Assembly (NCBI GenBank): GCA_963662175.1
Contig: OY759214.1
Span: forward strand, 98,852,115-98,916,114
Length of the DNA: 64,000 nt
Source: Aradus depressus
Lineage: Eukaryota; Arthropoda; Insecta; Hemiptera; Aradidae
Direction: 5' to 3'
Position 1 is the first letter of the stretch. Every line of letters starts with the position of its first letter. Shown one piece after another: positions 1-39,130 of the stretch. A program made the position numbers and the translations under genes. The notes below the pieces were generated by a model. It had not been told where the DNA came from. It was given only the letters and a program-made list of their open reading frames with translations, and made no database searches.

Positions 1-76
1 TCTAAATTTAAATATTGTCTTATTATATTTAATAGCACTTCTATTTCTGTTTTTATTCACAGATAGACTGGCTGAG

Positions 77-151
77 GAGCATCCACAGATCTTCTTCATG
101 TCAGCTTTGATACTCCGCTGAGTTATTCAATTGAAATCTTCGAGCATACAG
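77..151 (+). other. 75-nt phase-1 exon-like unit (family A, divergent copy)
   Basis: The segment lies between GGCTGAG at 70-76 and the donor GTATG at 152. It is exactly 75 nt. Read in phase 1 (two bases, 24 codons, one base) it has no stop and encodes the repeat with A-S-T-D-L-L-H-V-S-F at the start and D-T-P-L-S-Y-S-I-E in the middle. It differs from the main-array consensus at several codons yet stays open, which is the kind of evidence expected from a once-coding exon. No transcript evidence is available. Confidence 0.5.
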
Positions 152-226
152 GTATGTTTTTTTTCTGAATTTAGATACTGTCTTATTTTATTTATTAACA
201 CTTCTTTTTCTGTTTTTATTCGCAAT

Positions 227-238
227 CTTCGAACATAC
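227..238. repeat. 12-bp direct repeat, left flank of LINE (possible target-site duplication)
   Basis: CTTCGAACATAC is present here and again at 1491-1502, exactly bracketing the LINE. The motif is also the end of the family-A exon. The match could therefore be a target-site duplication, or it could be two neighbouring repeat units joined by the insertion. Confidence 0.55.
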
Positions 239-1490
239 TATCTATCGTGGCGCTACAACCCGGTGACGGGTCCTGGCCTCCTCCACCAACAGCCGCCAAT
301 TGTCCCGATCCTGTGCGGCTGCCATCCAGTTCCTGGTGCGGAACATGTTTCGGGCATCTTCTGCCACACCATCTGCCCATCTCAGCTTAGGTCTTCCTTG
401 CCGTCTTACTCCATGAATGGGCTCCATTAGCAGCTTCTTCGGCATTTCCTCAGCTTCCATCCTGGCGATATGTCCCGCCCATCTTAACCGCCCAATCTTC
501 ATGACTTGCAGAACATCTGGTTCTCTATAGAGTTCGTAGAGCTCCTGGTTGGTGCGTCTGCGCCATGCATGGCCTACTTGCACTCCTCCAAATATTCTGC
601 GCAGAATCTTCCTTTCGAACACCAATAGGCTCTGTTCGCTCATTTTCGAAGTTGTCCAGGTTTCTGAGCCATACAGAAGAACTGGGCGGATAAGGGTCTT
701 ATATAGAACGACATTAGTCTGCCTGGATATGTGGTTGCTTCTGAAGTGCTTGCTGAGACCATAGTAACACTTGTTTGCTGCAAAGATTCTTTTCCTTATC
801 TCAGTTTCGTTAACATTGTCTTGTGTAACTATGGAGCCCAAGTACGTAAATTCTGCGACCTTCTCAAATTTGTGGGGACCTATTTCAAGGGTCTCACCTT
901 GGGTAGGCACTTCTCCAGTGACCATGTATTTGGTTTTAGTTGCGTTCACCTCAAGACCCATTCTTCCTGCAGGGCCCATTAAAGCCCTAAATGCGTCACT
1001 GACTGCCCTTTCAGAGCGGCCCACTATGTCAATGTCGTCAGCATAGGCGAGAATCTGTACAAGCCTGTTAAAGATGGTTCCGCCCACTTGTATCCCTGAT
1101 TCCCTGATGCACTTCTCGAGAGCTATGTTGAAAAGGAGGCAGGCTAGAGCATCTCCTTGCCTCAGACCTTTCCCTGATTTAAACTCCTCTGATCTCTCTC
1201 CATTGACCTGTACCATACATCTTACCTCCCTCATCGTAAGCCTGACCAGTCTAAGAAGTTTCTCAGGTATATCAAGGTCCCTCATTGCCCTATAAAGTTC
1301 TTCACGATTAACGCTGTTGTAGGCAGCCTTGAAGTCAACGAATAGGTGGTGGGATCTCTGGTTGAACTCTCTACCTCTTTCGAGAATCGTTCGGAGGGAG
1401 AATATCTGGTCTGTTGTAGATTTAGCTTTCCTAAAACCGCACTGGTAAAAACCAATTATGTTCTCCGTGTGAGGCTGAAGTCGTTGGAAA
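239..1490 (-). mobile_element. 5'-truncated non-LTR (LINE) retrotransposon inserted in family A
   Basis: This is a single-copy block of about 1.25 kb interrupting the array. Its coding strand is minus, so the element's 3' end is at 239 and its truncated 5' end at about 1490. The stop codon (242-244) sits almost at the element edge and is followed by a short GATA-like end rather than a poly(A) tail, as in several LINE clades with very short 3' UTRs. The endonuclease domain and the first part of the RT domain are missing, which is typical of incomplete target-primed reverse transcription. The coding part has no internal stop, so the insertion looks young. The clade is not assigned. Confidence 0.85.
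242..1489 (-). CDS. LINE reverse transcriptase, C-terminal part of ORF2 (partial)
   Basis: This is a 415-codon open frame ending in TAG at 242-244. The open frame continues upstream into family-A repeat as far as 1531, but those residues are repeat-derived and there is no true start. The RT fold is clear: entry block GFRKAKSTTDQIF, motif A FVDFKAAYNSV (about 1310-1342, catalytic Asp), motif B GLRQGDALA (about 1142-1168) and motif C YADD (1034-1045). After these come the FTYLGS block and the C-terminal GHIARM and GRPKLRW blocks common in insect-type LINE ORF2 proteins. It would make cDNA at the target site. The N-terminal endonuclease and fingers are absent, so it cannot move by itself. The frame is intact, so the copy is recent. 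The product assignment is secure; the clade is not. Confidence 0.9.
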   Translation of the reverse strand, partial: FQRLQPHTENIIGFYQCGFRKAKSTTDQIFSLRTILERGREFNQRSHHLFVDFKAAYNSVNREELYRAMRDLDIPEKLLRLVRLTMREVRCMVQVNGERSEEFKSGKGLRQGDALACLLFNIALEKCIRESGIQVGGTIFNRLVQILAYADDIDIVGRSERAVSDAFRALMGPAGRMGLEVNATKTKYMVTGEVPTQGETLEIGPHKFEKVAEFTYLGSIVTQDNVNETEIRKRIFAANKCYYGLSKHFRSNHISRQTNVVLYKTLIRPVLLYGSETWTTSKMSEQSLLVFERKILRRIFGGVQVGHAWRRRTNQELYELYREPDVLQVMKIGRLRWAGHIARMEAEEMPKKLLMEPIHGVRRQGRPKLRWADGVAEDARNMFRTRNWMAAAQDRDNWRLLVEEARTRHRVVAPR

Positions 1491-1502
1491 CTTCGAACAT
1501 AC
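1491..1502. repeat. 12-bp direct repeat, right flank of LINE
   Basis: Second copy of CTTCGAACATAC, continuing directly into the family-A donor ACAG|GTATG at 1501-1509. See the left copy at 227-238. Confidence 0.55.
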
Positions 1503-1592
1503 AGGTATGTTTTTATTCTTAATTTAAACACTGTCTTATTTTATTTAATAACACTTCCTTTTCTGTTTTTATTCGCAGATAAACATTCTGAG

Positions 1593-1667
1593 TAGCACTT
1601 CAACGTCTTCTTCTAGTCAGCTTTGATACACCGCTGAATTATTCAATTGAAAACTTCGAACATACAG
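1593..1667 (+). other. 75-nt phase-1 exon-like unit, strongly divergent and open
   Basis: Lies between TTCTGAG (1586-1592) and the donor GTATG at 1668. It is exactly 75 nt with phase 1 at both ends. It differs from consensus at many positions (A-L-Q-R-L-L-L-V-S-F, then D-T-P-L-N-Y) but stays open. The frame that would follow from the upstream CGCAG acceptor hits TAG at once. This unit is therefore a good discriminator in favour of the 75-nt frame. Confidence 0.5.
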
Positions 1668-1755
1668 GTATGTTTTTGTTCTAACCTTAAATTCTGTCTT
1701 ATTATATTTTATAGCACTTCTAATTCTGTTCTTATTCGCAGATACACTGACTGCG

Positions 1756-1827
1756 GAGCATCTCAAGATCTTCTAGTTTGCTTTGATACTCCGCTGAGTT
1801 ATTCAACTGAAAATTTCGAACATACAG
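1756..1827 (+). other. 72-nt exon-like unit with a clean one-codon deletion
   Basis: Aligned with its neighbours it is 72 nt instead of 75. Three bases are missing in the middle (S-Q-D-L-L-V-C-F replaces the longer block), and the phase-1 frame stays open into the donor GTATG at 1828. The usual CTGAG acceptor is CTGCG here, so an acceptor would have to be the upstream GCAG or a nearby GGAG. Confidence 0.45.
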
Positions 1828-1915
1828 GTATGTTCTTGTTCTAAGTTTAAATACTGTCTTATTTATTTTAATAGCAATTCTGTCTCTGTTTTTATTCGCA
1901 GATAGACTGGCTGAG

Positions 1916-1990
1916 TTGTATTTCAAGATCTTTTTCATGGCGGCTTCGATACTCCGCTGAGTTCTTCAAATGGAAACTTCGAATATACAG
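1916..1990 (+). other. 75-nt phase-1 exon-like unit (GGF/SSSN type)
   Basis: Lies between CTGAG at 1911-1915 and the donor GTATG at 1991. It is 75 nt and open in phase 1. It represents the second common sequence type, with V-F-Q-D-L, H-G-G-F-D-T-P-L and S-S-S-N, then N-F-E-Y-T. Intron-like gaps to both neighbours are 85-90 nt when measured to the CTGAG acceptor. Confidence 0.5.
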
Positions 1991-2078
1991 GTATGTTTTT
2001 GTTCTAAATTTAATTACTGACTTATTTCATTCAATAGCACTCCTGTTTCTGTTTTTATTCGCAGATAGACTGGCTGAG

Positions 2079-2153
2079 GAGGATTTCAAGATCTTCTTCA
2101 TGGCAGCTTTGTTACTCCGCTGAGTTATTTAATTGAAAACTTCAAACATACAG
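2079..2153 (+). other. 75-nt phase-1 exon-like unit (GSF/SYLI type)
   Basis: Lies between GGCTGAG ending at 2078 and the donor GTATG at 2154. It is 75 nt and open in phase 1 (G-F-Q-D-L-L-H-G-S-F-V-T-P-L-S-Y-L-I-E and so on). It represents the first common sequence type of the main array. Confidence 0.5.
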
Positions 2154-3173
2154 GTATGTTTCGTTCTAAATTTAAATACTGTTTTCTTTTATTTAATAGC
2201 ACTTCTGTTCCTGTTTTTATTCGCAGAGAGATTCATACCTGAGAGATTCAATTGAAAACTTCGAACATACAGGTATGTTTTTGTTCCAAATTCAAATACT
2301 GACTTATAATATTTAATAGCACATCTGTTTCTGTTTTTATTCGCAGATAGACTGGCTGAGGTGTATTTCAAGATCTTCTTCATGGCGGCTTCGATACTCC
2401 GCTGAGTTCTTCACATGAAAACTTCGAATATACATGTATGTTTTTGTTCTAAATTTAATTACTGACTTATTTTATTCAATAGCACTCCTGTTTCTGTTTT
2501 TATTCGCAGATAGACTGGCTGAGGAGCATTTCAAGATCTTCTTCATGGCAGCTTTGATACTCCGCTGAGTTATTTAATTGAAAACTTCAAACAAACAGGT
2601 ATGTTTCGTTCTAAATTTAAATACTGTTTTATTTTATTTAATAGCACATCTGTTTCTGTTTTTATTCGCAGATAGACTGGCTGAGGTGTATTTCAAGATC
2701 TTCTTCATGGCGGCTTCGATACTCCGCTGAGTTCTTCAAATGAAGACTTCGAATATAGAGGTAAGTTTTTGTTCTAATTTTAAATAATATTTTATTTAAT
2801 TTAATAACACTTCTGTTTCTGTTTTTATTCGCAGATAGACTGGCTGAGGAGCATTTCAAGATCTTCTTCATGGCAGCTTTGATACTCCGCTGAGTTATTT
2901 AATTGAAAACTTCGAAAACACAGGTATGTTTCGTTCTAAATTTAAATACTGTTTTATATCATTTAATAACGCTTCTGTTCCTGTTTTTATTCGCAGAGAG
3001 ACTGGCTGAGGAGCATTTCAAGATCTTCTTTATGGCAGCTTCTATACTTCGCAGAGTTCTGCAAATGAAAACTTCGAATGTAGAGGTAAGTTTTTGTTCT
3101 AAATTTAAATAATATTTAATTTAATTTAATAGCACTTCTTTTTCTGTTTTTATTCGCAGATATACTGGCTGAC

Positions 3174-3248
3174 ATGTGTTTCAAGAACTTCTTCATGGCG
3201 ACTTCTATACTCCGCTGAGTTCTTCGAATGACAACTTCGAACATACAG
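3174..3248 (+). pseudogene. Exon-like unit with damaged acceptor (CTGAC)
   Basis: The distal acceptor GGCTGAG is GGCTGAC here. The 75-nt block itself remains open in phase 1 (V-F-Q-E-L-L-H-G-D-F-Y-T-P-L). This module type recurs through the array. If spliced, the exon would probably be skipped without changing frame, because both flanking introns are phase 1. Confidence 0.4.
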
Positions 3249-4912
3249 GTACGTTTTTGTTCTAAATTTAAATACTGTCTTATTTTACTTAATAGCACAT
3301 ATGTTTCTGTTTTTATTCGCAGATAGACTGGCTGAGGTGTATTTCAAGATCTTCTTCATGGCAGCTTTGTTACTCCGCTGAGTTCTTCAAATGAAAACTT
3401 TGAATATAGAGGTATGTTTCGATCTAAATTTAAATACTGTTTTCTTTTATTTAATAGCACTTCTGTTCCTGTTTTTATTCGCAGAGAGATTCATACCTGA
3501 GAGATTCAATTGAAAACTTCGAACATACAGGTATGTTTTTGTTCCAAATTCAAATACTGACTTATAATATTTAATAGCACATCTGTTTCTGTTTTTATTC
3601 GCAGATATACAGGCTGACATGTGTTTCAAGAGCTTCTTCATGGCAGCTTCGATACTCCGCTGAGTTCTTCAAATGAAAACTTTGAATATAGAGGTATGTT
3701 TCGTTCTAAATTTGAAAACTGTTTCATTTTATTTAATATCGCTTCTGTTCCTGTTTTTATTTGCAGAGAGACTGGCTGAGGAGCATTTCAAGATCTTCTT
3801 CATGGCATCTTCGATACTCCGCTGAGAGATTCAATTGAAAACTTCGAACATACAGGTATATTTTTGTTCTAAATTGAAATACTGTCCTATTTTATTTAAT
3901 AGTTTGTCTCTGTTTTTATCCGCAGCTAGCCTGGCTGAGGTGTATTTCAAGATCTTCTTCATGGCGGCTTCTATACTCCGCTGAGTTCTTCGAATGAAAA
4001 CTTCATATATACAGGTATGTTTTTGTTCTAAATTTAAATACTGTCTTATTTTACTTAATAGCACATCTGTTCCTGTTTTTATTCGCAGATAGACTGGCTG
4101 ATGAGCATTTCAAGATCTTCTTCATGGTAGCTTTGATACTCCGCTGAGTTATTTAATTGAAAACTTCGAAAACACAGGTATGTTCCGTTCTAAATTTAAA
4201 TACTGTTTTATATCATTTAATAACGGTTCTGTTCCTGTTTTTATTCGCAGATAGACTGGCTGAGGACCATTTCAAGATCTTCTTCATGGCAGCTTTGATA
4301 CTCCGCTGAGTTATTTAATTGAAAACTTCGAAAATATGGGTATGTTTCGTTCTAAATTTGAAAACTGTTTCATTTTATTTAATATCGCTTCTGTTCCTGT
4401 TTTTTTTCGCAGAGAGACTGGCTGAGGAGCATTTCAAGATCTTCTTCATGGCAGCTTATACTCCGCTGAGAGATTCAATTGAAAACTTCGAACATACAGG
4501 TATATTTTTGTTCTAAATTTAAATACTGTCTTATTTTACTTAATAGCACATCTGTTCCTGTTTTTATTCGCAGATAGACTGGCTGAGGTGTATTTCAAGA
4601 TCTTCTTCATGGCGGTTTCGATACTCCGCTGAGTTCTTCAAATGAAGACTTCGAATATAGATGTAAGTTTTTGTTCTAAATTTAAATAATATTTCATTTA
4701 ATTTAATAACACTTCTGTTTCTGTTTTTATTCGCAGATAGACTGGCTGAGGAGCATTTCAAGATCTTCTTAATGGCAGCTTTGATACTCCGCTGAGTTAT
4801 TTAATTGAAAACTTCGAAATCACAGGTATGTTTCGTTCTAAATTTAAATACTGTTTTATATCATTTAATAACGCTTCTGTTCCTGTTTTTACTCGCAGAG
4901 AGACTGGCTGAG

Positions 4913-4985
4913 GAGCATTTCAAGATCTTCTTCATGGCAGCTTCGATACTCCTGAGTTCTTCAAATGAAAACTTCGAATATAGAG
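4913..4985 (+). pseudogene. Exon-like unit with 2-nt deletion (73 nt, frameshifted)
   Basis: GATACTCCGCTGAG has become GATACTCCTGAG, so the unit is 73 nt and the phase-1 frame runs into TGA. Its donor is GAG|GTAAG. The same lesion is present in the copies at about 8111-8183, 9729-9801, 11185-11257, 16898-16970, 22127-22199 and 27356-27428. It was therefore propagated by duplication rather than arising many times. Confidence 0.5.
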
Positions 4986-5235
4986 GTAAGTTTTTGTTCT
5001 AAATTTAAATAATATTTTATTTTATTTAATAGCTTTTCTGTTTCTGTTTTTATTCGCAGATAGACTGGCTGAGGACCATTTCAAGATCTTCTTCATGGCA
5101 GCTTTGATACTCCGCTGAGTTATTTAATTGAAAACTTCGAAAATACAGGTATGTTTCGTTCTAAATTTGAAAACTGTTTCAATTTATTTAATATCGCTTC
5201 TGTTCCTGTTTTTATTCGCAGAGAGACTGGCTGAG

Positions 5236-5310
5236 GAGCATTTTAAGATCTTCTTCATGGCAGCTTCGATACTCCGCTGAGAGATTCAATTGAAAACTTC
5301 GAACATACAG
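5236..5310 (+). pseudogene. Exon-like unit with in-frame stop (TAA)
   Basis: The unit is 75 nt with normal flanking signals, but GCATTTCAAG has become GCATTTTAAG, giving TAA at 5244-5246 in the phase-1 frame. The same change is seen in the duplicated copies, for example near 8434-8508 and 17223-17297. Confidence 0.5.
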
Positions 5311-6012
5311 GTATATTTTTGTTCTAAATTGAAATACTGTCTTATTTTATTTAATAGTTTGTCTCTGTTTTTATCGGCAGCTAGCTTGGCTGAGGTGTAT
5401 TTCAAGATCTTCTTCATGGCGTCTTCTATACTCCGCTGAGTTCTTCAAATGAAAACTTCGAACATACAGGTACGTTTTTGTTCTAAATTTAAATACTGTC
5501 TTATTTTACTTAATAGCACATATGTTTCTGTTTTAATTCGCAGCTAGCTTGGCTGAGGTGTATTTCAAGATCTTCTTCATGGCGGCTTCTATACTCCGCT
5601 GAGTTCTTCAAATGAAAACTTCGAATATACTGGTATGTTTTTGTTCTAAATTTTAATACTGTCTTATTTTATTTAATAGCACTTCTGTCTTTTTGTTTAT
5701 TCGCAGATATACTGGCTGACATGTGTTTCAAGAACTTCTTCATGGCGACTTCTATACTCCGCACAGTTCTTCGAATGAAAACTTCATATATACAGGTATG
5801 TTTTTGTTCTAAATTTAAATACTGTCGTATTTTACTTAATAGCACATCTGTTTCTGTTTTTATTCGCAGATAGACTGGCTGAGGTGTATTTCAAGATCTT
5901 CTTCATGGCGGCTTCGATACTCCGCTGAGTTCTTCAAATGAAAACTTCTAATATAGAAGTAAGTTTTTGTTCTAAATTTAAATACTGTCTTATTTTATTT
6001 AATAGCACTCCT

Positions 6013-9000
6013 GTTTCTGTTTTTATTCGCAGATAGACTGGCTGAGGAGCATTTCAAGATCTTCTTCATGGCAGCTTTGATACTCCGCTGAGTTATTTAA
6101 TTGAAAACTTCGAAAACACAGGTATGTTTCGTTCTAAATTTAAATACTGTTTTATATCATTTAATAACGCTTCTGTTCCTGTTTTTATTCGCAGAGAGAC
6201 TGGCTGAGGAGCATTTCAAGATCTTCTTTATGGCAGCTTCTATACTTCGCAGAGTTCTGCAAATGAAAACTTCGAATGTAGAGGTAAGTTTTTGTTCTAA
6301 ATTTAAATAATATTTAATTTAATTTAATAGCACTTCTTTTTCTGTTTTTATTCGCAGATATACTGGCTGACATGTGTTTCAAGAACTTCTTCATGGCGAC
6401 TTCTATACTCCGCTGAGTTCTTCGAATGACAACTTCGAACATACAGGTACGTTTTTGTTCTAAATTTAAATACTGTCTTATTTTACTTAATAGCACATAT
6501 GTTTCTGTTTTTATTCGCAGATAGACTGGCTGAGGTGTATTTCAAGATCTTCTTCATGGCAGCTTTGTTACTCCGCTGAGTTATTTAATTGAAAACTTCA
6601 AACATACAGGTATGTTTCGATCTAAATTTAAATACTGTTTTCTTTTATTTAATAGCACTTCTGTTCCTGTTTTTATTCGCAGAGAGATTCATACCTGAGA
6701 GATTCAATTGAAAACTTCGAACATACAGGTATGTTTTTGTTCCAAATTCAAATACTGACTTATAATATTTAATAGCACATCTGTTTCTGGTTTTATTCGC
6801 AGATATACAGGCTGACATGTGTTTCAAGAGCTTCTTCATGGCAGCTTCGATACTCCGCTGAGTTCTTCAAATGAAAACTTTGAATATAGAGGTATGTTTC
6901 GTTCTAAATTTGAAAACTGTTTTATTTTATTTAATATCGCTTCTGTTCCTGTTTTTATTCGCAGAGAGACTGGCTGAGGAGCATTTCAAGATCTTCTTCA
7001 TGGCATCTTCGATACTCCGCTGAGAGATTCAATTGAAAACTTCGAACATACAGGTATATTTTTGTTCTAAATTGAAATACTGTCCTATTTTATTTAATAG
7101 TTTGTCTCTGTTTTTATCCGCAGCTAGCCTGGCTGAGGTGTATTTCAAGATCTTCTTCATGGCGGCTTCTATACTCCGCTGAGTTCTTCGAATGAAAACT
7201 TCATATATACAGGTATGTTTTTGTTCTAAATTTAAATACTGTCTTATTTTACTTAATAGCACATCTGTTCCTGTTTTTATTCGCAGATAGACTGGCTGAT
7301 GAGCATTTCAAGATCTTCTTCATGGTAGCTTTGATACTCCGCTGAGTTATTTAATTGAAAACTTCGAAAACACAGGTATGTTCCGTTCTAAATTTAAATA
7401 CTGTTTTATATCATTTAATAACGGTTCTGTTCCTGTTTTTATTCGCAGATAGACTGGCTGAGGACCATTTCAAGATCTTCTTCATGGCAGCTTTGATACT
7501 CCGCTGAGTTATTTAATTGAAAACTTCGAAAATATGGGTATGTTTCGTTCTAAATTTGAAAACTGTTTCATTTTATTTAATATCGCTTCTGTTCCTGTTT
7601 TTTTTCGCAGAGAGACTGGCTGAGGAGCATTTCAAGATCTTCTTCATGGCAGCTTATACTCCGCTGAGAGATTCAATTGAAAACTTCGAACATACAGGTA
7701 TATTTTTGTTCTACATTTAAATACTGTCTTATTTTACTTAATAGCACATCTGTTCCTGTTTTTATTCGCAGATAGACTGGCTGAGGTGTATTTCAAGATC
7801 TTCTTCATGGCGGTTTCGATACTCCGCTGAGTTCTTCAAATGAAGACTTCGAATATAGATGTAAGTTTTTGTTCTAAATTTAAATAATATTTCATTTAAT
7901 TTAATAACACTTCTGTTTCTGTTTTTATTCGCAGATAGACTGGCTGAGGAGCATTTCAAGATCTTCTTAATGGCAGCTTTGATACTCCGCTGAGTTATTT
8001 AATTGAAAACTTCGAAATCACAGGTATGTTTCGTTCTAAATTTAAATACTGTTTTATATCATTTAATAACGCTTCTGTTCCTGTTTTTACTCGCAGAGAG
8101 ACTGGCTGAGGAGCATTTCAAGATCTTCTTCATGGCAGCTTCGATACTCCTGAGTTCTTCAAATGAAAACTTCGAATATAGAGGTAAGTTTTTGTTCTAA
8201 ATTTAAATAATATTTTATTTTATTTAATAGCTTTTCTGTTTCTGTTTTTATTCGCAGATAGACTGGCTGAGGACCATTTCAAGATCTTCTTCATGGCAGC
8301 TTTGATACTCCGCTGAGTTATTTAATTGAAAACTTCGAAAATACAGGTATGTTTCGTTCTAAATTTGAAAACTGTTTCAATTTATTTAATATCGCTTCTG
8401 TTCCTGTTTTTATTCGCAGAGAGACTGGCTGAGGAGCATTTTAAGATCTTCTTCATGGCAGCTTCGATACTCCGCTGAGAGATTCAATTGAAAACTTCGA
8501 ACATACAGGTATATTTTTGTTCTAAATTGAAATACTGTCTTATTTTATTTAATAGTTTGTCTCTGTTTTTATCGGCAGCTAGCTTGGCTGAGGTGTATTT
8601 CAAGATCTTCTTCATGGCGTCTTCTATACTCCGCTGAGTTCTTCAAATGAAAACTTCGAACATACAGGTACGTTTTTGTTCTAAATTTAAATACTGTCTT
8701 ATTTTACTTAATAGCACATATGTTTCTGTTTTAATTCGCAGCTAGCTTGGCTGAGGTGTATTTCAAGATCTTCTTCATGGCGGCTTCTATACTCCGCTGA
8801 GTTCTTCAAATGAAAACTTCGAATATACTGGTATGTTTTTGTTCTAAATTTTAATACTGTCTTATTTTATTTAATAGCACTTCTGTCTTTTTGTTTATTC
8901 GCAGATATACTGGCTGACATGTGTTTCAAGAACTTCTTCATGGCGACTTCTATACTCCGCACAGTTCTTCGAATGAAAACTTCATATATACAGGTATGTT

Positions 9001-9203
9001 TTTGTTCTAAATTTAAATACTGTCGTATTTTACTTAATAGCACATCTGTTTCTGTTTTTATTCGCAGATAGACTGGCTGAGGTGTATTTCAAGATCTTCT
9101 TCATGGCGGCTTCGATACTCCGCTGAGTTCTTCAAATGAAAACTTCTAATATAGAAGTAAGTTTTTGTTCTAAATTTAAATACTGTCTTATTTTATTTAA
9201 TAG
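6013..9203 (+). repeat. 3198-bp higher-order unit, copy 2 (family A)
   Basis: Second copy of the block at 2815-6012. Correspondence ends at about 9203, where TTTAATAG is followed by TTTGTCTCTG instead of CACTCCTG. Confidence 0.85.
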
Positions 9204-12200: not shown

Positions 12201-12458
12201 GTTCTTCAAATGAAAACTTCTAATATAGAAGTAAGTTTTTGTTCTAAATTTAAATACTGTCTTATTTTATTTAATAGTTTGTCTCTGTTTTTATCCGCAG
12301 TTAGCTTGGCTGAGGTGTGTTTCAAGTTCTTCTTCATGGCGGCTTCTATACTCCGCTGAGTTCTTCAAATGAAAACTTCGAACATACAGGTATATTTTTG
12401 TTCTAAATTTAAATACTGTCTTATTTTACTTAATAGCACATCTGTTCCTGTTTTTATT
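7767..12458 (+). repeat. Family A higher-order repeats with 1618/1456/1618-bp spacing
   Basis: The same acceptor context (CTGTTCCTGTTTTTATTCGCAG followed by the GTTTCGATACTCC exon type) occurs at CGCAG positions 7767, 9385, 10841 and 12459. The spacings are 1618, 1456 and 1618 bp. The 162-bp difference is exactly one missing module: the GGACCATTTC unit is absent between 9385 and 10841. This shows whole-module loss by unequal exchange. The block overlaps the end of the 3198-bp copy 2. Confidence 0.8.
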
Positions 12459-15285: not shown

Positions 15286-15365
15286 GTATGTTTTTGTTCT
15301 AAATTTAAATACTGTCTTATTTTATTTAATTGCACTACAACGGTTCTGTCTGTTTTTGATCCCAG

Positions 15366-15440: not shown

Positions 15441-15522
15441 GTATAGTTCCATTCTAATTTCAAATTATTTCCAATTATATCTAATTGCACTACAACTGTT
15501 CTATGTCTGTTTTGTTTTGCAG
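15441..15522 (+). other. 82-nt intron-like spacer after A2 exon
   Basis: Donor CAG|GTATAGTT, branch-like TCTAATTG at about 15479-15486, long pyrimidine stretch, acceptor TTTTGCAG. The length and signals fit a small insect-type intron. The next exon, GAGGATCTCC at 15523, runs into satellite C. Confidence 0.55.
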
Positions 15523-15560
15523 GAGGATCTCCAAGTTTTTCTCATGTCAGGTTGGATACG

Positions 15561-16555
15561 CATGGCATCTCGTCATGGCATCTCCGCATGGCATCTCTTC
15601 ATGGCATACCCGCATGGCATCTCCGCATGATATATTTTCATAGCATCTCTTCACGGCATCCCCACATGGCATCTCTGAATGGCATTTATTCAAGGCATCC
15701 CCGCATGGCGTCATTTCATGGCATCTCCGCATGGTCTCTCTTCATGGCATTCACGCATGGCATTCCCGCATGGCATCCACAAAAGGCATCCCCGCATGAC
15801 ATCTCTTGATGGCATCCCCGCATGACATCTCTTGATGGCATCCCAGCATGTCGTTTCTTGATGGCATCCCAGCATGTCGTTTCTTGTTGGCATCCCAGCA
15901 TGTCATCTCTTCATGGCATTCCCGCATGGCATCTCCAGGTTTTGTTCTTGTCAGATTGGATACGCAGCTGAGGTATGTCAGGTTGGATACGCATGGCCTC
16001 TCATCATGGCATCTCTTCATGGCATCCCCGCATGGCATCTCCGCATGACATATTTTCATAGCATCTCTTCACGGCATCCCCGCATGGCATCTCTTAATGG
16101 CATTTATTCAAGGCATCCCCGCATGGCGTCATTTCATGGCATCTCCGCATGGTCTCTCTTCATGGCATTCACGCATGGCATTCCCACATGGCATCTCCGC
16201 ATGGCATCTTTTCATGGTATTTCTCCATGGCACCCTTGCATGGCATCCTCGAATGGCATCTCTTAGTGCATCCCCGCATGGCGTCATTTCATTGCATCTC
16301 CGCATGATATCTCTTAATGGCATCCCCGCATGGCATCTTCTCATGGCATGCACAAAAGGCATCCCCGCATGACATCTCTTGATGGCATCCCAGCATGTCG
16401 TTTCTTGATGGCATCCCAGCATGTCGTTTCTTGTTGGCATCCCAGCATGTCATCTCTTCATGGCATTCCCGCATGGCATCTCCAGGTTTTTTTCTTGTCA
16501 GATTGGATACGCAGCTGAGTTATGTCAGGTTGGATACGCATGGCCTCTCATCATG
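15561..16555. repeat. Satellite C block 1 (13-nt unit, inside an A2 exon)
   Basis: Tandem CATGGCATCTCTT / CATGGCATCCCCG units of 13 nt, often as 26-nt pairs. The block begins inside an A2-type exon (GAGGATCTCC...GGTTGGATACG at 15523-15560) and has exon scraps embedded at about 15931-15990 and 16480-16545. Because 13 is not a multiple of 3, each frame reads the same 13-residue peptide in turn, such as MASPHGISAWHLF on plus. This explains the many overlapping open frames on both strands. It ends in GCA shared with the next family-A unit. Confidence 0.9.
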
Positions 16556-19500
16556 GCAGATAGACTGGCTGAGGTGTATTTCAAGATCTTCTTCATGGCG
16601 GTTTCGATACTCCGCTGAGTTCTTCAAATGAAGACTTCGAATATAGATGTAAGTTTTTGTTCTAAATTTAAATAATATTTCATTTAATTTAATAACACTT
16701 CTGTTTCTGTTTTTATTCGCAGATAGACTGGCTGAGGAGCATTTCAAGATCTTCTTAATGGCAGCTTTGATACTCCGCTGAGTTTTTTAATTGAAAACTT
16801 CGAAATCACAGGTATGTTTCGTTCTAAATTTAAATACTGTTTTATATCATTTAATAACGCTTCTGTTCCTGTTTTTATTCGCAGAGAGACTGGCTGAGGA
16901 GCATTTCAAGATCTTCTTCATGGCAGCTTCGATACTCCTGAGTTCTTCAAATGAAAACTTCGAATATAGAGGTAAGTTTTTGTTCTAAATTTAAATAATA
17001 TTTTATTTTATTTAATAGCTTTTCTGTTTCTGTTTTTATTCGCAGATAGACTGGCTGAGGACCATTTCAAGATCTTCTTCATGGCAGCTTTGATACTCCG
17101 CTGAGTTATTTAATTGAAAACTTCGAAAATATAGGTATGTTTCGTTCTAAATTTGAAAACTGTTTCAATTTATTTAATATCGCTTCTGTTCCTGTTTTTA
17201 TTCGCAGAGAGACTGGCTGAGGAGCATTTTAAGATCTTCTTCATGGCAGCTTCGATACTCCGCTGAGAGATTCAATTGAAAACTTCGAACATACAGGTAT
17301 ATTTTTGTTCTAAATTGAAATACTGTCTTATTTTATTTAATAGTTTGTCTCTGTTTTTATCGGCAGCTAGCTTGGCTGAGGTGTATTTCAAGATCTTCTT
17401 CATGGCGTCTTCTATACTCCGCTGAGTTCTTCAAATGAAAACTTCGAACATACAGGTACGTTTTTGTTCTAAATTTAAATACTGTCTTATTTTACTTAAT
17501 AGCACATATGTTCCTGTTTTTATTCGCAGAGAGACTGGCTGAGGAGCATTTCAAGATCTTCTTCATGGCGGCTTCGATACTCCGCTGAGTTCTTCAAATG
17601 AAAACTTTGAATATAGAGGTAAGTTTTTGTTCTAAATTTTAATAATATTTTATTTAATTTAATAGCACTTCTGTTTCAATTTTTATTCGCAGATAGACTG
17701 GCTGAGGAGCATTTCAAGATCTTCTTCATGGCAGCTTTGATACTCCGCTGAGTTATTTAATTGAAAACTTCGAAAACACAGGTATGTTTCGTTCTAAATT
17801 TAAATACTGTTTTATATCATTTAATAACGCTTCTGTTCCTGTTTTTATTCGCAGAGAGACTGTCTGAGGAGCATTTCAAGATCTTTTTCATGGCAGCTTC
17901 GATACTCCGCTGAGAGATTCAATTGAAAACTTCGAACATACAGGTATATTTTTGTTCTAAATTGAAATACTGTCCTATTTTATTTAATAGTTTGTCTCTG
18001 TTTTTATCCGCAGCTAGCCTGGCTGAGGTGTATTTCAAGATCTTCTTCATGGCGGCTTCTATACTCCGCTGAGTTCTTCAAATGAAAACTTCGAATATAC
18101 AGGTATGTTTTTGTTCTAAATTTAAATACTGTCTTATTTTATTTAATAGCACTTCTGTCTCTTTTTTTATTCGCAGATATACTGGCTGACATGTGTTTCA
18201 AGAACTTCTTCATGGCGACTTCTATACTCCGCTGAGTTTTTCGAATGAAAACTTCATATATACAGGTATGTTTTTGTTCTAAATTTAAATACTGTCGTAT
18301 TTTACTTAATAGCACATCTGTTTCTGTTTTAATTCGCAGATAGACTGGCTGAGGTGTATTTCAAGATCTTCTTCATGGCGGCTTCGATACTCCGCTGAGT
18401 TCTTCAAATGAAAACTTCGAATATAGAGGTAAGTTTTTGTTCTAAATTTAAATACTGTCTTATTTTATTTAATAGTTTGTCTCTGTTTTTATCCGCAGTT
18501 AGCTTTGCTGAGGTGTATTTCAAGATCTTCTTCATGGCGGCTTCTATACTCCGCTGAGTTCTTCAAATGAAAACTTCGAACATACAGGTATGTTTCGTTC
18601 TTAATTTAAATACTGTTTTATATCATTTAATAACGCTTCTGTTCCTGTTTTTATTCGCAGAGAGACTGTCTGAGGAGCATTTCAAGATCTTCTTCATGGC
18701 AGCTTCGATACTCCGCTGAGTTCTTCAAATGAAAACTTTCAATATAGAGGTATGTTTCGTTCTAAATTTGAAAACTGTTTCATTTTATTTAATATCGCTT
18801 CTGTTCCTGTTTTTATTCGCAGAGAGACTGGCTGAGGAGCATTTCAAGATCTTCTTCATGGCAGCTTCGATACTCCGCTGAGAGATTCAATTGAAAACTT
18901 CGAACATACAGGTATATTTTTGTTCTAAATTGAAATACTGTCCTATTTTATTTAATAGTTTGTCTCTGTTTTTATCCGCAGCTAGCCTGGCTGAGGTGTA
19001 TTTCAAGATCTTCTTCATGGCGGCTTCTATACTCCGCTGAGTTCTTCAAATGAAAACTTTGAATATAGAGGTAAGTTTTTGTTCTAAATTTAAATAATAT
19101 TTTATTTAATTTAATAGCACTTCTGTTTCAATTTTTATTCTCAGATAGACTGGCTGAGGAGCATTTCAAGATCTTCTTCAAGGCAGCTTTGATACTCCGC
19201 TGAGTTATTTAATTAAAAACTTCGAAAACACAGGTATGTTTCGTTCTAAATTTAAATACTGTTTTATATCATTTAATAACGCTTCTGTTCCTGTTTTTAT
19301 TCGCAGAGAGACTGGCTGAGGAGCATTTCAAGATCTTCTTCATGGCAGCTTCGATACTCCGCTGAGTTCTTCGAATGAAAACTTAATATATACAGGTATG
19401 TTTTTGTTCTAAATTTAAATACTGTCTTATTTTACTTAATAGCACATCTGATTCAGTTCTTATCCGCAGATAGACTGGCTGATGACCATTTCAAGATCTT

Positions 19501-20594
19501 TCTTCTCTGGACTTCTTCAAGTGAGAACTTCGAACATACAGGTATGTTTTTGTTCTAAATTTAATTAATATTTTGTTTTTTTTTAATTGCACTCCTGTTT
19601 CGGTTTTTATTTGCAGAAAACTGGCTGAGGAGCCTTTCAAGATCTTCATCATGGCAGCTTCGAAACTCCGCTGAGAGATTCAATTGAAAACTTCGAACAT
19701 ACAGGTATGTTTTTGTTCTAAATTTAAATACTGTTTTATTTTATTTAATAGCACTTCTGTCTCTGTTTTTATTCGCAAAGAGATTGGCTGAGGAGCATTT
19801 CAAGATCTTCTTGAAGGCAGCTTCGATACTCCGCTGAGAGATTCCATTGAAAACTTCGAACATACAAGTATGTTTTTGTTCTAAATTTAAATACTGTCTT
19901 ATTTTACTTAATAGCACATCTGTTCCTGTTTTTATTCGCAGATAGACTGGCTGAGGTGTATTTCAAGATCTTCTTCTTGGCGGCTTCGATACTCCGCTGA
20001 GTTCTTCAAATGAAAACTTCGAATTTAGAGGTAAGTTTTTGTTCTAAATTCAAATAATATTTTGTTCAATTTAATAGCACTTCTGTTTCTGTTTTCATTC
20101 GCAGATAGACTGGCTGAGGTGTATTTCAAGATGTTCTTCATGGCGGCTTCTATACTCCGTGGACTTCTTCAAATGAAAACTTCGAACATACAGGTATGTT
20201 TTTGTTCTAAATTGAAATACTGTCTTATTTTATTTAATAGTTTATCTCTGTTTTTATTCGCAGCTAGCCTGGCTGAGGTGTATTTCAAGATCTTCTTCAT
20301 GGCGGCTTCTATACTCCGCTGAGTTCTTCAAATGAAAACTTCGAATATACAGGTATGTTTTTGTTCTAAATTTAAATAATGTTTTATTTTAATTAATTGA
20401 ACATCTGTTTCTGTTTTTTTCGCAGATAGACTGGCTGAAGAGCATTTCAAGATCTTCTTCATGGCGGCTTCGATACTCCGTAGAGTTCTTCAAATGAAAA
20501 CTTGGAACATATAGGTATGTTTTTGTTCTAAATTTAAATACTGTCTTATTTTATTTAATTGCACTACAACGGTTCTGTCTGTTTTTGATCCCAG

Positions 20595-20669
20595 GAGAAT
20601 CAGCAGGCTTTCCTCCTGTCAGGTTGGATATGCCGCTGAGTTATTCATATGAAAACCTCGAACTTACAG
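20595..20669 (+). other. A2 variant exon, copy 2
   Basis: Copy of the exon at 15366-15440 at +5229, with the same 75-nt length, phase and flanking splice signals. Confidence 0.58.
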
Positions 20670-20789
20670 GTATAGTTCCATTCTAATTTCAAATTATTTC
20701 CAATTATATCTAATTGCACTACAACTGTTCTATGTCTGTTTTGTTTTGCAGGAGGATCTCCAAGTTTTTCTCATGTCAGGTTGGATACG

Positions 20790-21784
20790 CATGGCATCTC
20801 GTCATGGCATCTCCGCATGGCATCTCTTCATGGCATACCCGCATGGCATCTCCGCATGATATATTTTCATAGCATCTCTTCACGGCATCCCCACATGGCA
20901 TCTCTGAATGGCATTTATTCAAGGCATCCCCGCATGGCGTCATTTCATGGCATCTCCGCATGGTCTCTCTTCATGGCATTCACGCATGGCATTCCCGCAT
21001 GGCATCCACAAAAGGCATCCCCGCATGACATCTCTTGATGGCATCCCCGCATGACATCTCTTGATGGCATCCCAGCATGTCGTTTCTTGATGGCATCCCA
21101 GCATGTCGTTTCTTGTTGGCATCCCAGCATGTCATCTCTTCATGGCATTCCCGCATGGCATCTCCAGGTTTTGTTCTTGTCAGATTGGATACGCAGCTGA
21201 GGTATGTCAGGTTGGATACGCATGGCCTCTCATCATGGCATCTCTTCATGGCATCCCCGCATGGCATCTCCGCATGACATATTTTCATAGCATCTCTTCA
21301 CGGCATCCCCGCATGGCATCTCTTAATGGCATTTATTCAAGGCATCCCCGCATGGCGTCATTTCATGGCATCTCCGCATGGTCTCTCTTCATGGCATTCA
21401 CGCATGGCATTCCCACATGGCATCTCCGCATGGCATCTTTTCATGGTATTTCTCCATGGCACCCTTGCATGGCATCCTCGAATGGCATCTCTTAGTGCAT
21501 CCCCGCATGGCGTCATTTCATTGCATCTCCGCATGATATCTCTTAATGGCATCCCCGCATGGCATCTTCTCATGGCATGCACAAAAGGCATCCCCGCATG
21601 ACATCTCTTGATGGCATCCCAGCATGTCGTTTCTTGATGGCATCCCAGCATGTCGTTTCTTGTTGGCATCCCAGCATGTCATCTCTTCATGGCATTCCCG
21701 CATGGCATCTCCAGGTTTTTTTCTTGTCAGATTGGATACGCAGCTGAGTTATGTCAGGTTGGATACGCATGGCCTCTCATCATG
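20790..21784. repeat. Satellite C block 2
   Basis: Copy of 15561-16555 at +5229. I saw no differences from block 1 in the stretches I compared. Confidence 0.9.
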
Positions 21785-24700
21785 GCAGATAGACTGGCTG
21801 AGGTGTATTTCAAGATCTTCTTCATGGCGGTTTCGATACTCCGCTGAGTTCTTCAAATGAAGACTTCGAATATAGATGTAAGTTTTTGTTCTAAATTTAA
21901 ATAATATTTCATTTAATTTAATAACACTTCTGTTTCTGTTTTTATTCGCAGATAGACTGGCTGAGGAGCATTTCAAGATCTTCTTAATGGCAGCTTTGAT
22001 ACTCCGCTGAGTTTTTTAATTGAAAACTTCGAAATCACAGGTATGTTTCGTTCTAAATTTAAATACTGTTTTATATCATTTAATAACGCTTCTGTTCCTG
22101 TTTTTATTCGCAGAGAGACTGGCTGAGGAGCATTTCAAGATCTTCTTCATGGCAGCTTCGATACTCCTGAGTTCTTCAAATGAAAACTTCGAATATAGAG
22201 GTAAGTTTTTGTTCTAAATTTAAATAATATTTTATTTTATTTAATAGCTTTTCTGTTTCTGTTTTTATTCGCAGATAGACTGGCTGAGGACCATTTCAAG
22301 ATCTTCTTCATGGCAGCTTTGATACTCCGCTGAGTTATTTAATTGAAAACTTCGAAAATATAGGTATGTTTCGTTCTAAATTTGAAAACTGTTTCAATTT
22401 ATTTAATATCGCTTCTGTTCCTGTTTTTATTCGCAGAGAGACTGGCTGAGGAGCATTTTAAGATCTTCTTCATGGCAGCTTCGATACTCCGCTGAGAGAT
22501 TCAATTGAAAACTTCGAACATACAGGTATATTTTTGTTCTAAATTGAAATACTGTCTTATTTTATTTAATAGTTTGTCTCTGTTTTTATCGGCAGCTAGC
22601 TTGGCTGAGGTGTATTTCAAGATCTTCTTCATGGCGTCTTCTATACTCCGCTGAGTTCTTCAAATGAAAACTTCGAACATACAGGTACGTTTTTGTTCTA
22701 AATTTAAATACTGTCTTATTTTACTTAATAGCACATATGTTCCTGTTTTTATTCGCAGAGAGACTGGCTGAGGAGCATTTCAAGATCTTCTTCATGGCGG
22801 CTTCGATACTCCGCTGAGTTCTTCAAATGAAAACTTTGAATATAGAGGTAAGTTTTTGTTCTAAATTTTAATAATATTTTATTTAATTTAATAGCACTTC
22901 TGTTTCAATTTTTATTCGCAGATAGACTGGCTGAGGAGCATTTCAAGATCTTCTTCATGGCAGCTTTGATACTCCGCTGAGTTATTTAATTGAAAACTTC
23001 GAAAACACAGGTATGTTTCGTTCTAAATTTAAATACTGTTTTATATCATTTAATAACGCTTCTGTTCCTGTTTTTATTCGCAGAGAGACTGTCTGAGGAG
23101 CATTTCAAGATCTTTTTCATGGCAGCTTCGATACTCCGCTGAGAGATTCAATTGAAAACTTCGAACATACAGGTATATTTTTGTTCTAAATTGAAATACT
23201 GTCCTATTTTATTTAATAGTTTGTCTCTGTTTTTATCCGCAGCTAGCCTGGCTGAGGTGTATTTCAAGATCTTCTTCATGGCGGCTTCTATACTCCGCTG
23301 AGTTCTTCAAATGAAAACTTCGAATATACAGGTATGTTTTTGTTCTAAATTTAAATACTGTCTTATTTTATTTAATAGCACTTCTGTCTCTTTTTTTATT
23401 CGCAGATATACTGGCTGACATGTGTTTCAAGAACTTCTTCATGGCGACTTCTATACTCCGCTGAGTTTTTCGAATGAAAACTTCATATATACAGGTATGT
23501 TTTTGTTCTAAATTTAAATACTGTCGTATTTTACTTAATAGCACATCTGTTTCTGTTTTAATTCGCAGATAGACTGGCTGAGGTGTATTTCAAGATCTTC
23601 TTCATGGCGGCTTCGATACTCCGCTGAGTTCTTCAAATGAAAACTTCGAATATAGAGGTAAGTTTTTGTTCTAAATTTAAATACTGTCTTATTTTATTTA
23701 ATAGTTTGTCTCTGTTTTTATCCGCAGTTAGCTTTGCTGAGGTGTATTTCAAGATCTTCTTCATGGCGGCTTCTATACTCCGCTGAGTTCTTCAAATGAA
23801 AACTTCGAACATACAGGTATGTTTCGTTCTTAATTTAAATACTGTTTTATATCATTTAATAACGCTTCTGTTCCTGTTTTTATTCGCAGAGAGACTGTCT
23901 GAGGAGCATTTCAAGATCTTCTTCATGGCAGCTTCGATACTCCGCTGAGTTCTTCAAATGAAAACTTTCAATATAGAGGTATGTTTCGTTCTAAATTTGA
24001 AAACTGTTTCATTTTATTTAATATCGCTTCTGTTCCTGTTTTTATTCGCAGAGAGACTGGCTGAGGAGCATTTCAAGATCTTCTTCATGGCAGCTTCGAT
24101 ACTCCGCTGAGAGATTCAATTGAAAACTTCGAACATACAGGTATATTTTTGTTCTAAATTGAAATACTGTCCTATTTTATTTAATAGTTTGTCTCTGTTT
24201 TTATCCGCAGCTAGCCTGGCTGAGGTGTATTTCAAGATCTTCTTCATGGCGGCTTCTATACTCCGCTGAGTTCTTCAAATGAAAACTTTGAATATAGAGG
24301 TAAGTTTTTGTTCTAAATTTAAATAATATTTTATTTAATTTAATAGCACTTCTGTTTCAATTTTTATTCTCAGATAGACTGGCTGAGGAGCATTTCAAGA
24401 TCTTCTTCAAGGCAGCTTTGATACTCCGCTGAGTTATTTAATTAAAAACTTCGAAAACACAGGTATGTTTCGTTCTAAATTTAAATACTGTTTTATATCA
24501 TTTAATAACGCTTCTGTTCCTGTTTTTATTCGCAGAGAGACTGGCTGAGGAGCATTTCAAGATCTTCTTCATGGCAGCTTCGATACTCCGCTGAGTTCTT
24601 CGAATGAAAACTTAATATATACAGGTATGTTTTTGTTCTAAATTTAAATACTGTCTTATTTTACTTAATAGCACATCTGATTCAGTTCTTATCCGCAGAT

Positions 24701-25823
24701 AGACTGGCTGATGACCATTTCAAGATCTTTCTTCTCTGGACTTCTTCAAGTGAGAACTTCGAACATACAGGTATGTTTTTGTTCTAAATTTAATTAATAT
24801 TTTGTTTTTTTTTAATTGCACTCCTGTTTCGGTTTTTATTTGCAGAAAACTGGCTGAGGAGCCTTTCAAGATCTTCATCATGGCAGCTTCGAAACTCCGC
24901 TGAGAGATTCAATTGAAAACTTCGAACATACAGGTATGTTTTTGTTCTAAATTTAAATACTGTTTTATTTTATTTAATAGCACTTCTGTCTCTGTTTTTA
25001 TTCGCAAAGAGATTGGCTGAGGAGCATTTCAAGATCTTCTTGAAGGCAGCTTCGATACTCCGCTGAGAGATTCCATTGAAAACTTCGAACATACAAGTAT
25101 GTTTTTGTTCTAAATTTAAATACTGTCTTATTTTACTTAATAGCACATCTGTTCCTGTTTTTATTCGCAGATAGACTGGCTGAGGTGTATTTCAAGATCT
25201 TCTTCTTGGCGGCTTCGATACTCCGCTGAGTTCTTCAAATGAAAACTTCGAATTTAGAGGTAAGTTTTTGTTCTAAATTCAAATAATATTTTGTTCAATT
25301 TAATAGCACTTCTGTTTCTGTTTTCATTCGCAGATAGACTGGCTGAGGTGTATTTCAAGATGTTCTTCATGGCGGCTTCTATACTCCGTGGACTTCTTCA
25401 AATGAAAACTTCGAACATACAGGTATGTTTTTGTTCTAAATTGAAATACTGTCTTATTTTATTTAATAGTTTATCTCTGTTTTTATTCGCAGCTAGCCTG
25501 GCTGAGGTGTATTTCAAGATCTTCTTCATGGCGGCTTCTATACTCCGCTGAGTTCTTCAAATGAAAACTTCGAATATACAGGTATGTTTTTGTTCTAAAT
25601 TTAAATAATGTTTTATTTTAATTAATTGAACATCTGTTTCTGTTTTTTTCGCAGATAGACTGGCTGAAGAGCATTTCAAGATCTTCTTCATGGCGGCTTC
25701 GATACTCCGTAGAGTTCTTCAAATGAAAACTTGGAACATATAGGTATGTTTTTGTTCTAAATTTAAATACTGTCTTATTTTATTTAATTGCACTACAACG
25801 GTTCTGTCTGTTTTTGATCCCAG

Positions 25824-25898
25824 GAGAATCAGCAGGCTTTCCTCCTGTCAGGTTGGATATGCCGCTGAGTTATTCATATGAAAACCTCGAACTTACAG
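25824..25898 (+). other. A2 variant exon, copy 3
   Basis: Copy of the exon at 15366-15440 at +10458, with the same 75-nt length and flanking signals. Confidence 0.58.
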
Positions 25899-26018
25899 GT
25901 ATAGTTCCATTCTAATTTCAAATTATTTCCAATTATATCTAATTGCACTACAACTGTTCTATGGCTGTTTTGTTTTGCAGGAGGATCTCCAAGTTTTTCT
26001 CATGTCAGGTTGGATACG

Positions 26019-27013
26019 CATGGCATCTCGTTATGGCATCTCCGCATGGCATCTCTTCATGGCATACCCGCATGGCATCTCCGCATGATATATTTTCATA
26101 GCATCTCTTCACGGCATCCCCACATGGCATCTCTGAATGGCATTTATTCAAGGCATCCCCGCATGGCGTCATTTCATGGCATCTCCGCATGGTCTCTCTT
26201 CATGGCATTCACGCATGGCATTCCCGCATGGCATCCACAAAAGGCATCCCCGCATGACATCTCTTGATGGCATCCCCGCATGACATCTCTTGATGGCATC
26301 CCAGCATGTCGTTTCTTGATGGCATCCCAGCATGTCGTTTCTTGTTGGCATCCCAGCATGTCATCTCTTCATGGCATTCCCGCATGGCATCTCCAGGTTT
26401 TGTTCTTGTCAGATTGGATACGCAGCTGAGGTATGTCAGGTTGGATACGCATGGCCTCTCATCATGGCATCTCTTCATGGCATCCCCGCATGGCATCTCT
26501 GCATGACATATTTTCATAGCATCTCTTCACGGCATCCCCGCATGGCATCTCTTAATGGCATTTATTCAAGGCATCCCCGCATGGCGTCATTTCATGGCAT
26601 CTCCGCATGGTCTCTCTTCATGGCATTCACGCATGGCATTCCCACATGGCATCTCCGCATGGCATCTTTTCATGGTATTTCTCCATGGCACCCTTGCATG
26701 GCATCCTCGAATGGCATCTCTTAGTGCATCCCCGCATGGCGTCATTTCATTGCATCTCCGCATGATATCTCTTAATGGCATCCCCGCATGGCATCTTCTC
26801 ATGGCATGCACAAAAGGCATCCCCGCATGACATCTCTTGATGGCATCCCAGCATGTCGTTTCTTGATGGCATCCCAGCATGTCGTTTCTTGTTGGCATCC
26901 CAGCATGTCATCTCTTCATGGCATTCCCGCATGGCATCTCCAGGTTTTTTTCTTGTCAGATTGGATACGCAGCTGAGTTATGTCAGGTTGGATACGCATG
27001 GCCTCTCATCATG
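26019..27013. repeat. Satellite C block 3
   Basis: Copy of block 1 with a few private substitutions, for example CTCGTTATGGC near 26028-26038 and CTCTGCATG near 26496-26504. Confidence 0.9.
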
Positions 27014-28137
27014 GCAGATAGACTGGCTGAGGTGTATTTCAAGATCTTCTTCATGGCGGTTTCGATACTCCGCTGAGTTCTTCAAATGAAGACTTCGAAT
27101 ATAGATGTAAGTTTTTGTTCTAAATTTAAATAATATTTCATTTAATTTAATAACACTTCTGTTTCTGTTTTTATTCGCAGATAGACTGGCTGAGGAGCAT
27201 TTCAAGATCTTCTTAATGGCAGCTTTGATACTCCGCTGAGTTTTTTAATTGAAAACTTCGAAATCACAGGTATGTTTCGTTCTAAATTTAAATACTGTTT
27301 TATATCATTTAATAACGCTTCTGTTCCTGTTTTTATTCGCAGAGAGACTGGCTGAGGAGCATTTCAAGATCTTCTTCATGGCAGCTTCGATACTCCTGAG
27401 TTCTTCAAATGAAAACTTCGAATATAGAGGTAAGTTTTTGTTCTAAATTTAAATAATATTTTATTTTATTTAATAGCTTTTCTGTTTCTGTTTTTATTCG
27501 CAGATAGACTGGCTGAGGACCATTTCAAGATCTTCTTCATGGCAGCTTTGATACTCCGCTGAGTTATTTAATTGAAAACTTCGAAAATATAGGTATGTTT
27601 CGTTCTAAATTTGAAAACTGTTTCAATTTATTTAATATCGCTTCTGTTCCTGTTTTTATTCGCAGAGAGACTGGCTGAGGAGCATTTTAAGATCTTCTTC
27701 ATGGCAGCTTCGATACTCCGCTGAGAGATTCAATTGAAAAGTTCGAACATACAGGTATATTTTTGTTCTAAATTGAAATACTGTCTTATTTTATTTAATA
27801 GTTTGTCTCTGTTTTTATCGGCAGCTAGCTTGGCTGAGGTGTATTTCAAGATCTTCTTCATGGCGTCTTCTATACTCCGCTGAGTTCTTCAAATGAAAAC
27901 TTCGAACATACAGGTACGTTTTTGTTCTAAATTTAAATACTGTCTTATTTTACTTAATAGCACATATGTTCCTGTTTTTATTCGCAGAGAGACTGGCTGA
28001 GGAGCATTTCAAGATCTTCTTCATGGCGGCTTCGATACTCCGCTGAGTTCTTCAAATGAAAACTTTGAATATAGAGGTAAGTTTTTGTTCTAAATTTTAA
28101 TAATATTTTATTTAATTTAATAGCACTTCTGTTTCAA
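27014..28137 (+). repeat. 5229-bp higher-order unit, copy 4 (first 1124 bp only)
   Basis: Matches 21785-22908 until 28137, inside a spacer at TTCTGTTTCAAT, where it is cut and joined to satellite C. One private change (AAAAGTTCG near 27738) distinguishes it. The truncation removes the acceptor of the last family-A spacer. Confidence 0.88.
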
Positions 28138-38312: not shown

Positions 38313-38346
38313 TATCAACCGTCTTTCCTGTCTTTATGTGTTTTTC

Positions 38347-39042: not shown

Positions 39043-39130
39043 GTATGTTTTAGTTCTAAATTCAAATTCTGTCTTATTTTATTTTGAAGCACTTTTGGTT
39101 CTGTTTTAATTTGCAGATAGATTCGCTGAG

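Follow-up and report, generated by a model that had tools for sequence, protein, structure and literature searches.

A stretch of 64,000 nucleotides from the Aradus depressus genome (GCA_963662175.1, contig OY759214.1, C1:98852115-98916114; 698-Mb genome, 74 contigs), called the window below, was analysed for its repeat content. It carries three tandem families: A, with units of 162-163 bp; B, a 13-bp minisatellite with CATGGCATCTCTT-like repeats; and C, with units of about 346 bp. Family A is the subject of this report. It is likely, at a probability of roughly 0.55, that family A is a satellite that goes back to a single module, an exon plus its intron, in a microexon gene; most of it is predicted to be non-coding today.

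Organisation of family A

Units of family A lie head to tail. A profile built from A units gave 171 matches in the window, 159 of them near full length, close to the number of about 165 modules guessed in an earlier note on this DNA. Units of type A1 were found at 1-226 (+), upstream of a retrotransposon fragment, and in an array at 1491-15365 (+) of 162-163 bp units, usually with an 89-nt exon-like block and an intron-like spacer of 70-75 nt. A second A1 array was placed at 38896-42056 (+, start approximate). The earlier note had described one A array over 1-28137 and A units on both sides of the window. The first array is present, broken by the retrotransposon fragment (about 239-1490) and by three B blocks, and the far side holds the second A array (about 38900-42131).

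The sample beyond the window consisted of 20 fetched 10-kb loci (L-numbers denote extracted genome loci and C-numbers contigs). The window and these loci together gave 870 profile matches, 823 of them near full length, which yielded 565 distinct aligned modules. Clusters of family A were counted by hand, among the matches listed, at no fewer than about 23 places (about two dozen) on 11 contigs.

Splice-like signals of the A1 unit

On the + strand the A1 unit reads as a pyrimidine-rich stretch, TTCGCAG, an 89-nt block and GTATGT. Most spacers measure 70-75 nt and a few 78-82 nt. The usual block length of 89 nt from TTCGCAG was obtained for 116 modules in the window and for 315 distinct ones in the window plus 20 loci. 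The earlier description of a module of about 162 bp with donor, spacer and acceptor was borne out: all 159 near-full-length window modules keep the donor GT, and 152 keep the AG of TTCGCAG. GGCTGAG, which had been taken as the A1 acceptor, lies 14 nt downstream of the acceptor that is backed by the pyrimidine tract, and 134 of the 159 retain its AG. When the 158 dinucleotides of the unit were ranked by conservation across distinct modules, the donor GT came 8th, the TTCGCAG acceptor 34th and the GGCTGAG acceptor 63rd. A 75-nt exon from GGCTGAG as the main splice form was rejected, its AG being less conserved and replaced by AA in some L050 units (aligned by eye).

Markov-random units with the composition of A1 were screened for a donor scoring 8 or more out of 9 and, 50-120 nt away, a tract scoring 9 or more out of 12. 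The A1 pair (donor 8 of 9, tract 10 of 12) reaches this threshold, as did 44 of 5000 random units. The splice-like layout of A1 is unusual, though not overwhelmingly so.

Coding potential of the A1 block

Counted from TTCGCAG, the 89-nt block has consensus stops in all three phases, and 6/452, 7/452 and 47/451 ungapped modules are open in the respective phases. Counted from GGCTGAG, 444 of 465 ungapped modules are open in the frame of the earlier note, against 58/466 and 6/465 in the other two frames (sampled from the 565 distinct aligned modules of the window and 20 loci). The claim of one open frame throughout therefore holds from GGCTGAG and fails from TTCGCAG. The claimed block length of 75 nt divides in the same way: it was found from GGCTGAG in 146 of the 159 window modules (75 nt and open in 132), and the tract-backed acceptor gives 89 nt in common A1 units. 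Among 416 distinct blocks, which are distinct sequences and not independent events, 335 are 75 nt long, 70 have frame-breaking lengths and 11 are off by a multiple of three. Few codons of the block consensus are close to a stop, and only 5 of its 225 possible single changes produce one, so that openness of the 75-nt frame is cheap.

On a tree of the 565 modules, changes were estimated at 13.9 per column in the block and 14.4 per column in the spacer. By codon position (1/2/3) they numbered 16.6, 13.6 and 11.7 per column, with third positions least variable, which is the reverse of the pattern of a conserved protein. Seen against expected changes were 782 and 741.8 for the non-synonymous class, 196 and 231.3 for the synonymous class, and 25 and 32.8 for stops. 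None of length, rate, codon position or change class indicates purifying selection on A1 amino acids.

A2 units

A2 units are a minority without the extra 14 nt, in which TTCGCAG or a similar acceptor is followed directly by GAGGATCTCC... or a relative. The block extends for 75 nt up to an ACAG/GT donor, with phase 1 at either end. Four blocks in the window have a canonical acceptor and tract: 15366-15440 (+; ...CCCAG acceptor, ACAG/GTATAG donor, open in phase 1, ESAGFPPVRLDMPLSYSYENLELT), 20595-20669 (+), 25824-25898 (+) and 42057-42131 (+). The first three are copies inside one higher-order repeat. The same pattern search returned two 72-nt blocks behind weak acceptors, at 1596-1667 and 39134-39205. 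Elsewhere, five consecutive canonical 75-nt phase-1 A2 blocks were found at C1:50736511-50737209 (L049). A search for A2 gave 124 matches.

A search by way of the A2 intron gave 46 matches, from which 32 distinct blocks were drawn, the remainder being duplicates, partial matches or matches without AG. Fifteen blocks were 75 nt and open, and one was 75 nt with a stop. The other 16 comprised one of 72 nt, three of 74, 73 and 64 nt, four of A1 type, six that run into B and two without a clear exon. In a separate set of 16 distinct hand-picked A2 blocks, all open and 75 nt long, distance was 0.151 for the blocks and 0.225 for the introns, a comparison that is biased, the blocks having been found by block similarity and broken ones omitted.

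Families B and C and higher-order repeats

Family B begins inside an A2 block. The sequence opens as GGATCTCCAAG...TTGGATACG and continues as CATGGCATC repeats, the start point being after the codons for LDT. The A2 start at 15523 (15523-16520, +) becomes minisatellite at 15561-16482 and meets a stop after 94 codons. B tracts at 20790-21711 (+) and 26019-26940 (+) follow A2 starts at 20752 and 25981. Further B blocks occupy 28132-28868 (+), where the A2 start at 28414 runs into B and stops after 150 codons. At 42214-43895 (+) the A2 start at 42214 runs into B and stops after 33 codons, and a second B block, with its A2 start at 43566, stops after 102 codons. In the six A2-B blocks read, the stop came after 33 to 150 codons. 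The far side of B joins an A1 unit at one place (near 16550), and elsewhere an A2-like end with donor sits among B repeats (open reading frame (ORF) 28081-28800).

A higher-order repeat of 5,229 bp, made of A1 array, A2 and B block, was recognised by self-shift identity over 13126-28146 (+). The interval 13126-22917 is 99.8% identical to the stretch 5,229 bases on, and amplification is therefore taken to be recent. Further higher-order repeats of 3198, 1456 and 1618 bp are present in the A array.

Family C, a tandem repeat of about 346 bp with shorter sub-variants, covers 28876-38893 (+, end approximate), and a second C array covers 43911-63180 (+, end approximate). Units in these arrays bear CCTTCGGATGGGACTTT-like motifs in two contexts. 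Rfam gave no match at E<=1 for 28800-39100 and nothing useful at gathering scores over the whole window, and a scan of the window for transfer RNA genes gave none. Viral contigs searched with a 31-base A pattern gave no matches.

At the loci read, C lies downstream of B or A, and in L052 an A block passes directly into C. A, B and C follow one another in that order, all on one strand, in the window, in the loci at C1:98.9 Mb and on C5; C53 has A then C, mirrored. C has the orientation of A at C1:98.9, C1:88.1-88.2 and C6:38.43 Mb.

Mobile elements and neighbouring sequences

The A1 block at the start of the window contains an inserted fragment of a non-long-terminal-repeat (non-LTR) retrotransposon at 239-1490 (-; RVT_1, 5e-27; ORF 242-1540, minus strand). 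Its target duplication of 12 bp, CTTCGAACATAC, was read from the sequence at 227-238 and 1491-1502. Named relatives of the reverse transcriptase, among the best 120 of 1120, are mostly from arthropods and reach 58% identity. Long open non-LTR retrotransposon ORFs lie directly outside A arrays in L010 (855-4061, +, 1069 codons) and L015 (3915-7634, -, 1240 codons) and may reflect recent activity. A 467-codon ORF of L015 (7873-9273) is without a Pfam match above cut-off.

A 177-codon ORF is found in near-identical copies at array edges: 63418-63951 (-) in the window, 7253-7783 (-) in L009 and 2031-2561 (+) in L011. L009 and L011 are 99.1% alike across 2.5 kb. The window copy had no match in Pfam; we take the ORF to resemble the beginning of a polymerase gene of Maverick type. 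It is adjoined by a C2H2-like ORF that scores below the Pfam cut-off. GIY-YIG ORFs lie beside arrays in L010 (9070-9420, -), L011 (8317-8700, -) and L015 (near 9622), called by Pfam above cut-off in L010 and by similar translation in L011 and L015. GIY-YIG domains are typical of Penelope-like retroelements. Exact (TTAGG)6 occurs three times genome-wide, two of the occurrences overlapping, at two internal places; the assembly thus has little or none of the telomere repeat usual in arthropods.

Origin of family A

For most of the array, a satellite formed from a 75-nt phase-1 module with a changed acceptor region would explain the sequence better than working exons do. The following course is proposed. 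An ancestral gene would have had repeated 75-nt phase-1 exons of A2 type, with introns of about 80 nt between them, and blocks so arranged, with canonical signals, are still present. A1 differs from A2 by 14 nt right behind the CAG acceptor, probably as a gain in A1, and no frame of the A1 consensus is free of stops when read from that acceptor. A1 stands in tandem and has been homogenised in higher-order blocks that measure about 1.5, 1.6, 3.2 and 5.2 kb, for which unequal exchange or segmental duplication may be responsible. The B minisatellite, joined to the A2 block after LDT, would have grown from that point, with C downstream. Since cassettes in the order A-B-C recur in the window cluster and on C5, copying of the whole cassette at once is likely. 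Derivation from a gene of many short exons, as the earlier note had put it, is in our view likely if unproven, and the five canonical A2 blocks in a row speak for it. Its further suggestion that the array itself is such a gene finds no support in view of the consensus stops, the frame-breaking lengths, the equal rates in block and spacer and the least variable third positions. That note had named, as what would refute it, a lack of spliced transcripts in any tissue together with equal substitution and indel rates in block and spacer and no frame preference. Transcripts apart, the sequence results are close to this: rates are equal and indels mostly frame-breaking, against a mild depletion of stops.

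Several results weigh against a satellite of genic origin that is now mostly non-coding. The depletion of stops is one of them. It was assessed by three tests, which differ in strength. A simulation without a tree predicted 75% open blocks, and 310 of 335 were observed. A neutral simulation on the tree (300 runs) gave a mean of 339 stop-free modules (range 42-519) and never reached the observed 534 of 565. When opportunity-matched control codon triples were used, 94.5% of modules were stop-free for the real frame and 84.1% on average for the controls, with 3.7% of 3151 triples doing at least as well. The matched triples were given most weight, because both simulations ignore recurrent change at subfamily columns. 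We take the depletion as a faint sign that a frame is, or once was, kept.

The search for the parent gene also gave little. Joined-repeat queries of 251 and 501 residues had no hits at E<=10 in protein databases (216 and 3292 candidates, being proteins of roughly 138 to 877 residues with 5-residue words in common), and in Pfam no family scored above its curated cut-off with the repeat. Intron-free junctions of A1 (with either acceptor) or of A2 were absent at up to three mismatches, one pattern each, and therefore no retro-copied spliced transcript was seen. An ATG exon at one array end in L051 was tried as a common first exon and rejected, its unique part matching only itself genome-wide. Among A2 blocks purifying selection was not detected: the ratio of non-synonymous to synonymous differences (pN/pS) was 1.87 (bootstrap 1.08-4.30) for 16 distinct blocks out of 17 hand-picked open 75-nt ones, all paralogues, with broken A2 blocks omitted. 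The donor/acceptor pair of A2 is unremarkable, its thresholds being reached by 1642 of 5000 random units. As to the cassette, A is on both strands in L009-L011 and at C1:50.6-50.7 and C2:49.8-50.0 Mb. Among the matches listed, C is minus and A plus near C3:5.4-5.5 Mb, and C1:93.3 and C10:7.1 Mb have C matches without nearby A.

Much of this would suit an ordinary satellite that was never genic, its splice-like motifs and open 75 nt being accidents of one founding sequence. With a single ancestor of all units, signals and frame count once. An open frame comes cheaply in this consensus, the A2 splice pair is not rare by chance, and protein, Pfam, shared first-exon and spliced-copy support were all lacking. 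Such an origin is nevertheless unlikely, given the unusual A1 splice pair, A2 blocks of 75 nt in the same phase on both sides, once five in a row, and the depletion of in-frame stops. A live family of microexon genes is considerably less probable still than genic descent followed by decay: transcripts of A2, and perhaps of A1 through GGCTGAG, would then be spliced to encode large repeat proteins that evolve fast. The A2 blocks are canonical and in phase, their pN/pS exceeds 1 as in fast-evolving families, and the ungapped A1 blocks are mostly open and depleted of stops. The frame-breaking lengths of A1-type blocks (70/416, against 11/416 in-phase length changes) do not fit this, nor do the lesser conservation of the GGCTGAG acceptor, the stops that B adds in the six A2-B blocks read, the want of a shared start exon and of a database protein, and the equal block and spacer rates.

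Equally improbable is a cassette A-B-C that forms part of a large mobile element with expanded internal tandem repeats. The order recurs at the loci read, C is near A elsewhere, and retroelement and GIY-YIG ORFs adjoin arrays; the retroelements next to the arrays belong to several kinds, none of which was observed to extend across a cassette, and flanks were compared at six loci. A bolder picture, to which we give little credence, would combine giant microexon genes that are still alive with a module that is also spreading as a satellite. A2 exons would then encode a fast-diversifying 25-residue repeat, and the A1 arrays and in-exon minisatellites a recombining reservoir for new exon combinations. 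The preferred account remains that of a gene-derived satellite, most of which would no longer be coding.

Comparison with known systems

Satellite DNA with higher-order repeats has head-to-tail units, homogenised multi-unit blocks, many chromosomal sites and no clear coding constraint. Family A is like it in its head-to-tail units of about 163 bp, its homogenised higher-order blocks and its many sites. It differs in that the unit keeps an exon plus intron layout, with B starting in the exon part and C downstream. Schistosome micro-exon genes have runs of short exons with lengths that are multiples of three. The likeness, drawn by layout alone, is in the short exons and the multiple-of-three length; those are expressed genes, not hundred-kilobase arrays. 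Among the titles and abstract openings listed on gene-derived satellites, no satellite with exon and intron was described.

The closest published architecture found is that of the aphid bicycle and megacycle genes, as set out in PMC9168663. Bicycle exons are very short, many and internal, and start at codon position 2; one megacycle gene spreads 118 exons over about 100 kb and has repeating protein units; and bicycle proteins show rapid amino-acid change, with some homologues lacking the CYC motif (PMC9168663). The A2 blocks likewise have the layout of short exons that start at codon position 2. The A1 units differ, being 89 nt from the canonical acceptor with consensus stops in all phases, and so do the near-identical tandem copies of one module, most of them not coding-like. 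The CYC motif is absent from 16 of 16 distinct A2 translations. No shared signal-peptide exon was found; the one candidate first exon (L051) is single copy in the genome. On the evidence here, family A resembles bicycle and megacycle genes in exon phase and number and does not join them.

The origin of a satellite is seldom traceable, and the unit of family A is still shaped like an exon and the intron belonging to it. Canonical A2 survives beside an A1 majority that has apparently decayed, and a second minisatellite seems to arise from the same block. A hundred repeats of an open frame between splice-like signals do not in themselves make a gene. If the proposed origin is true, the path from gene to satellite would become directly testable.

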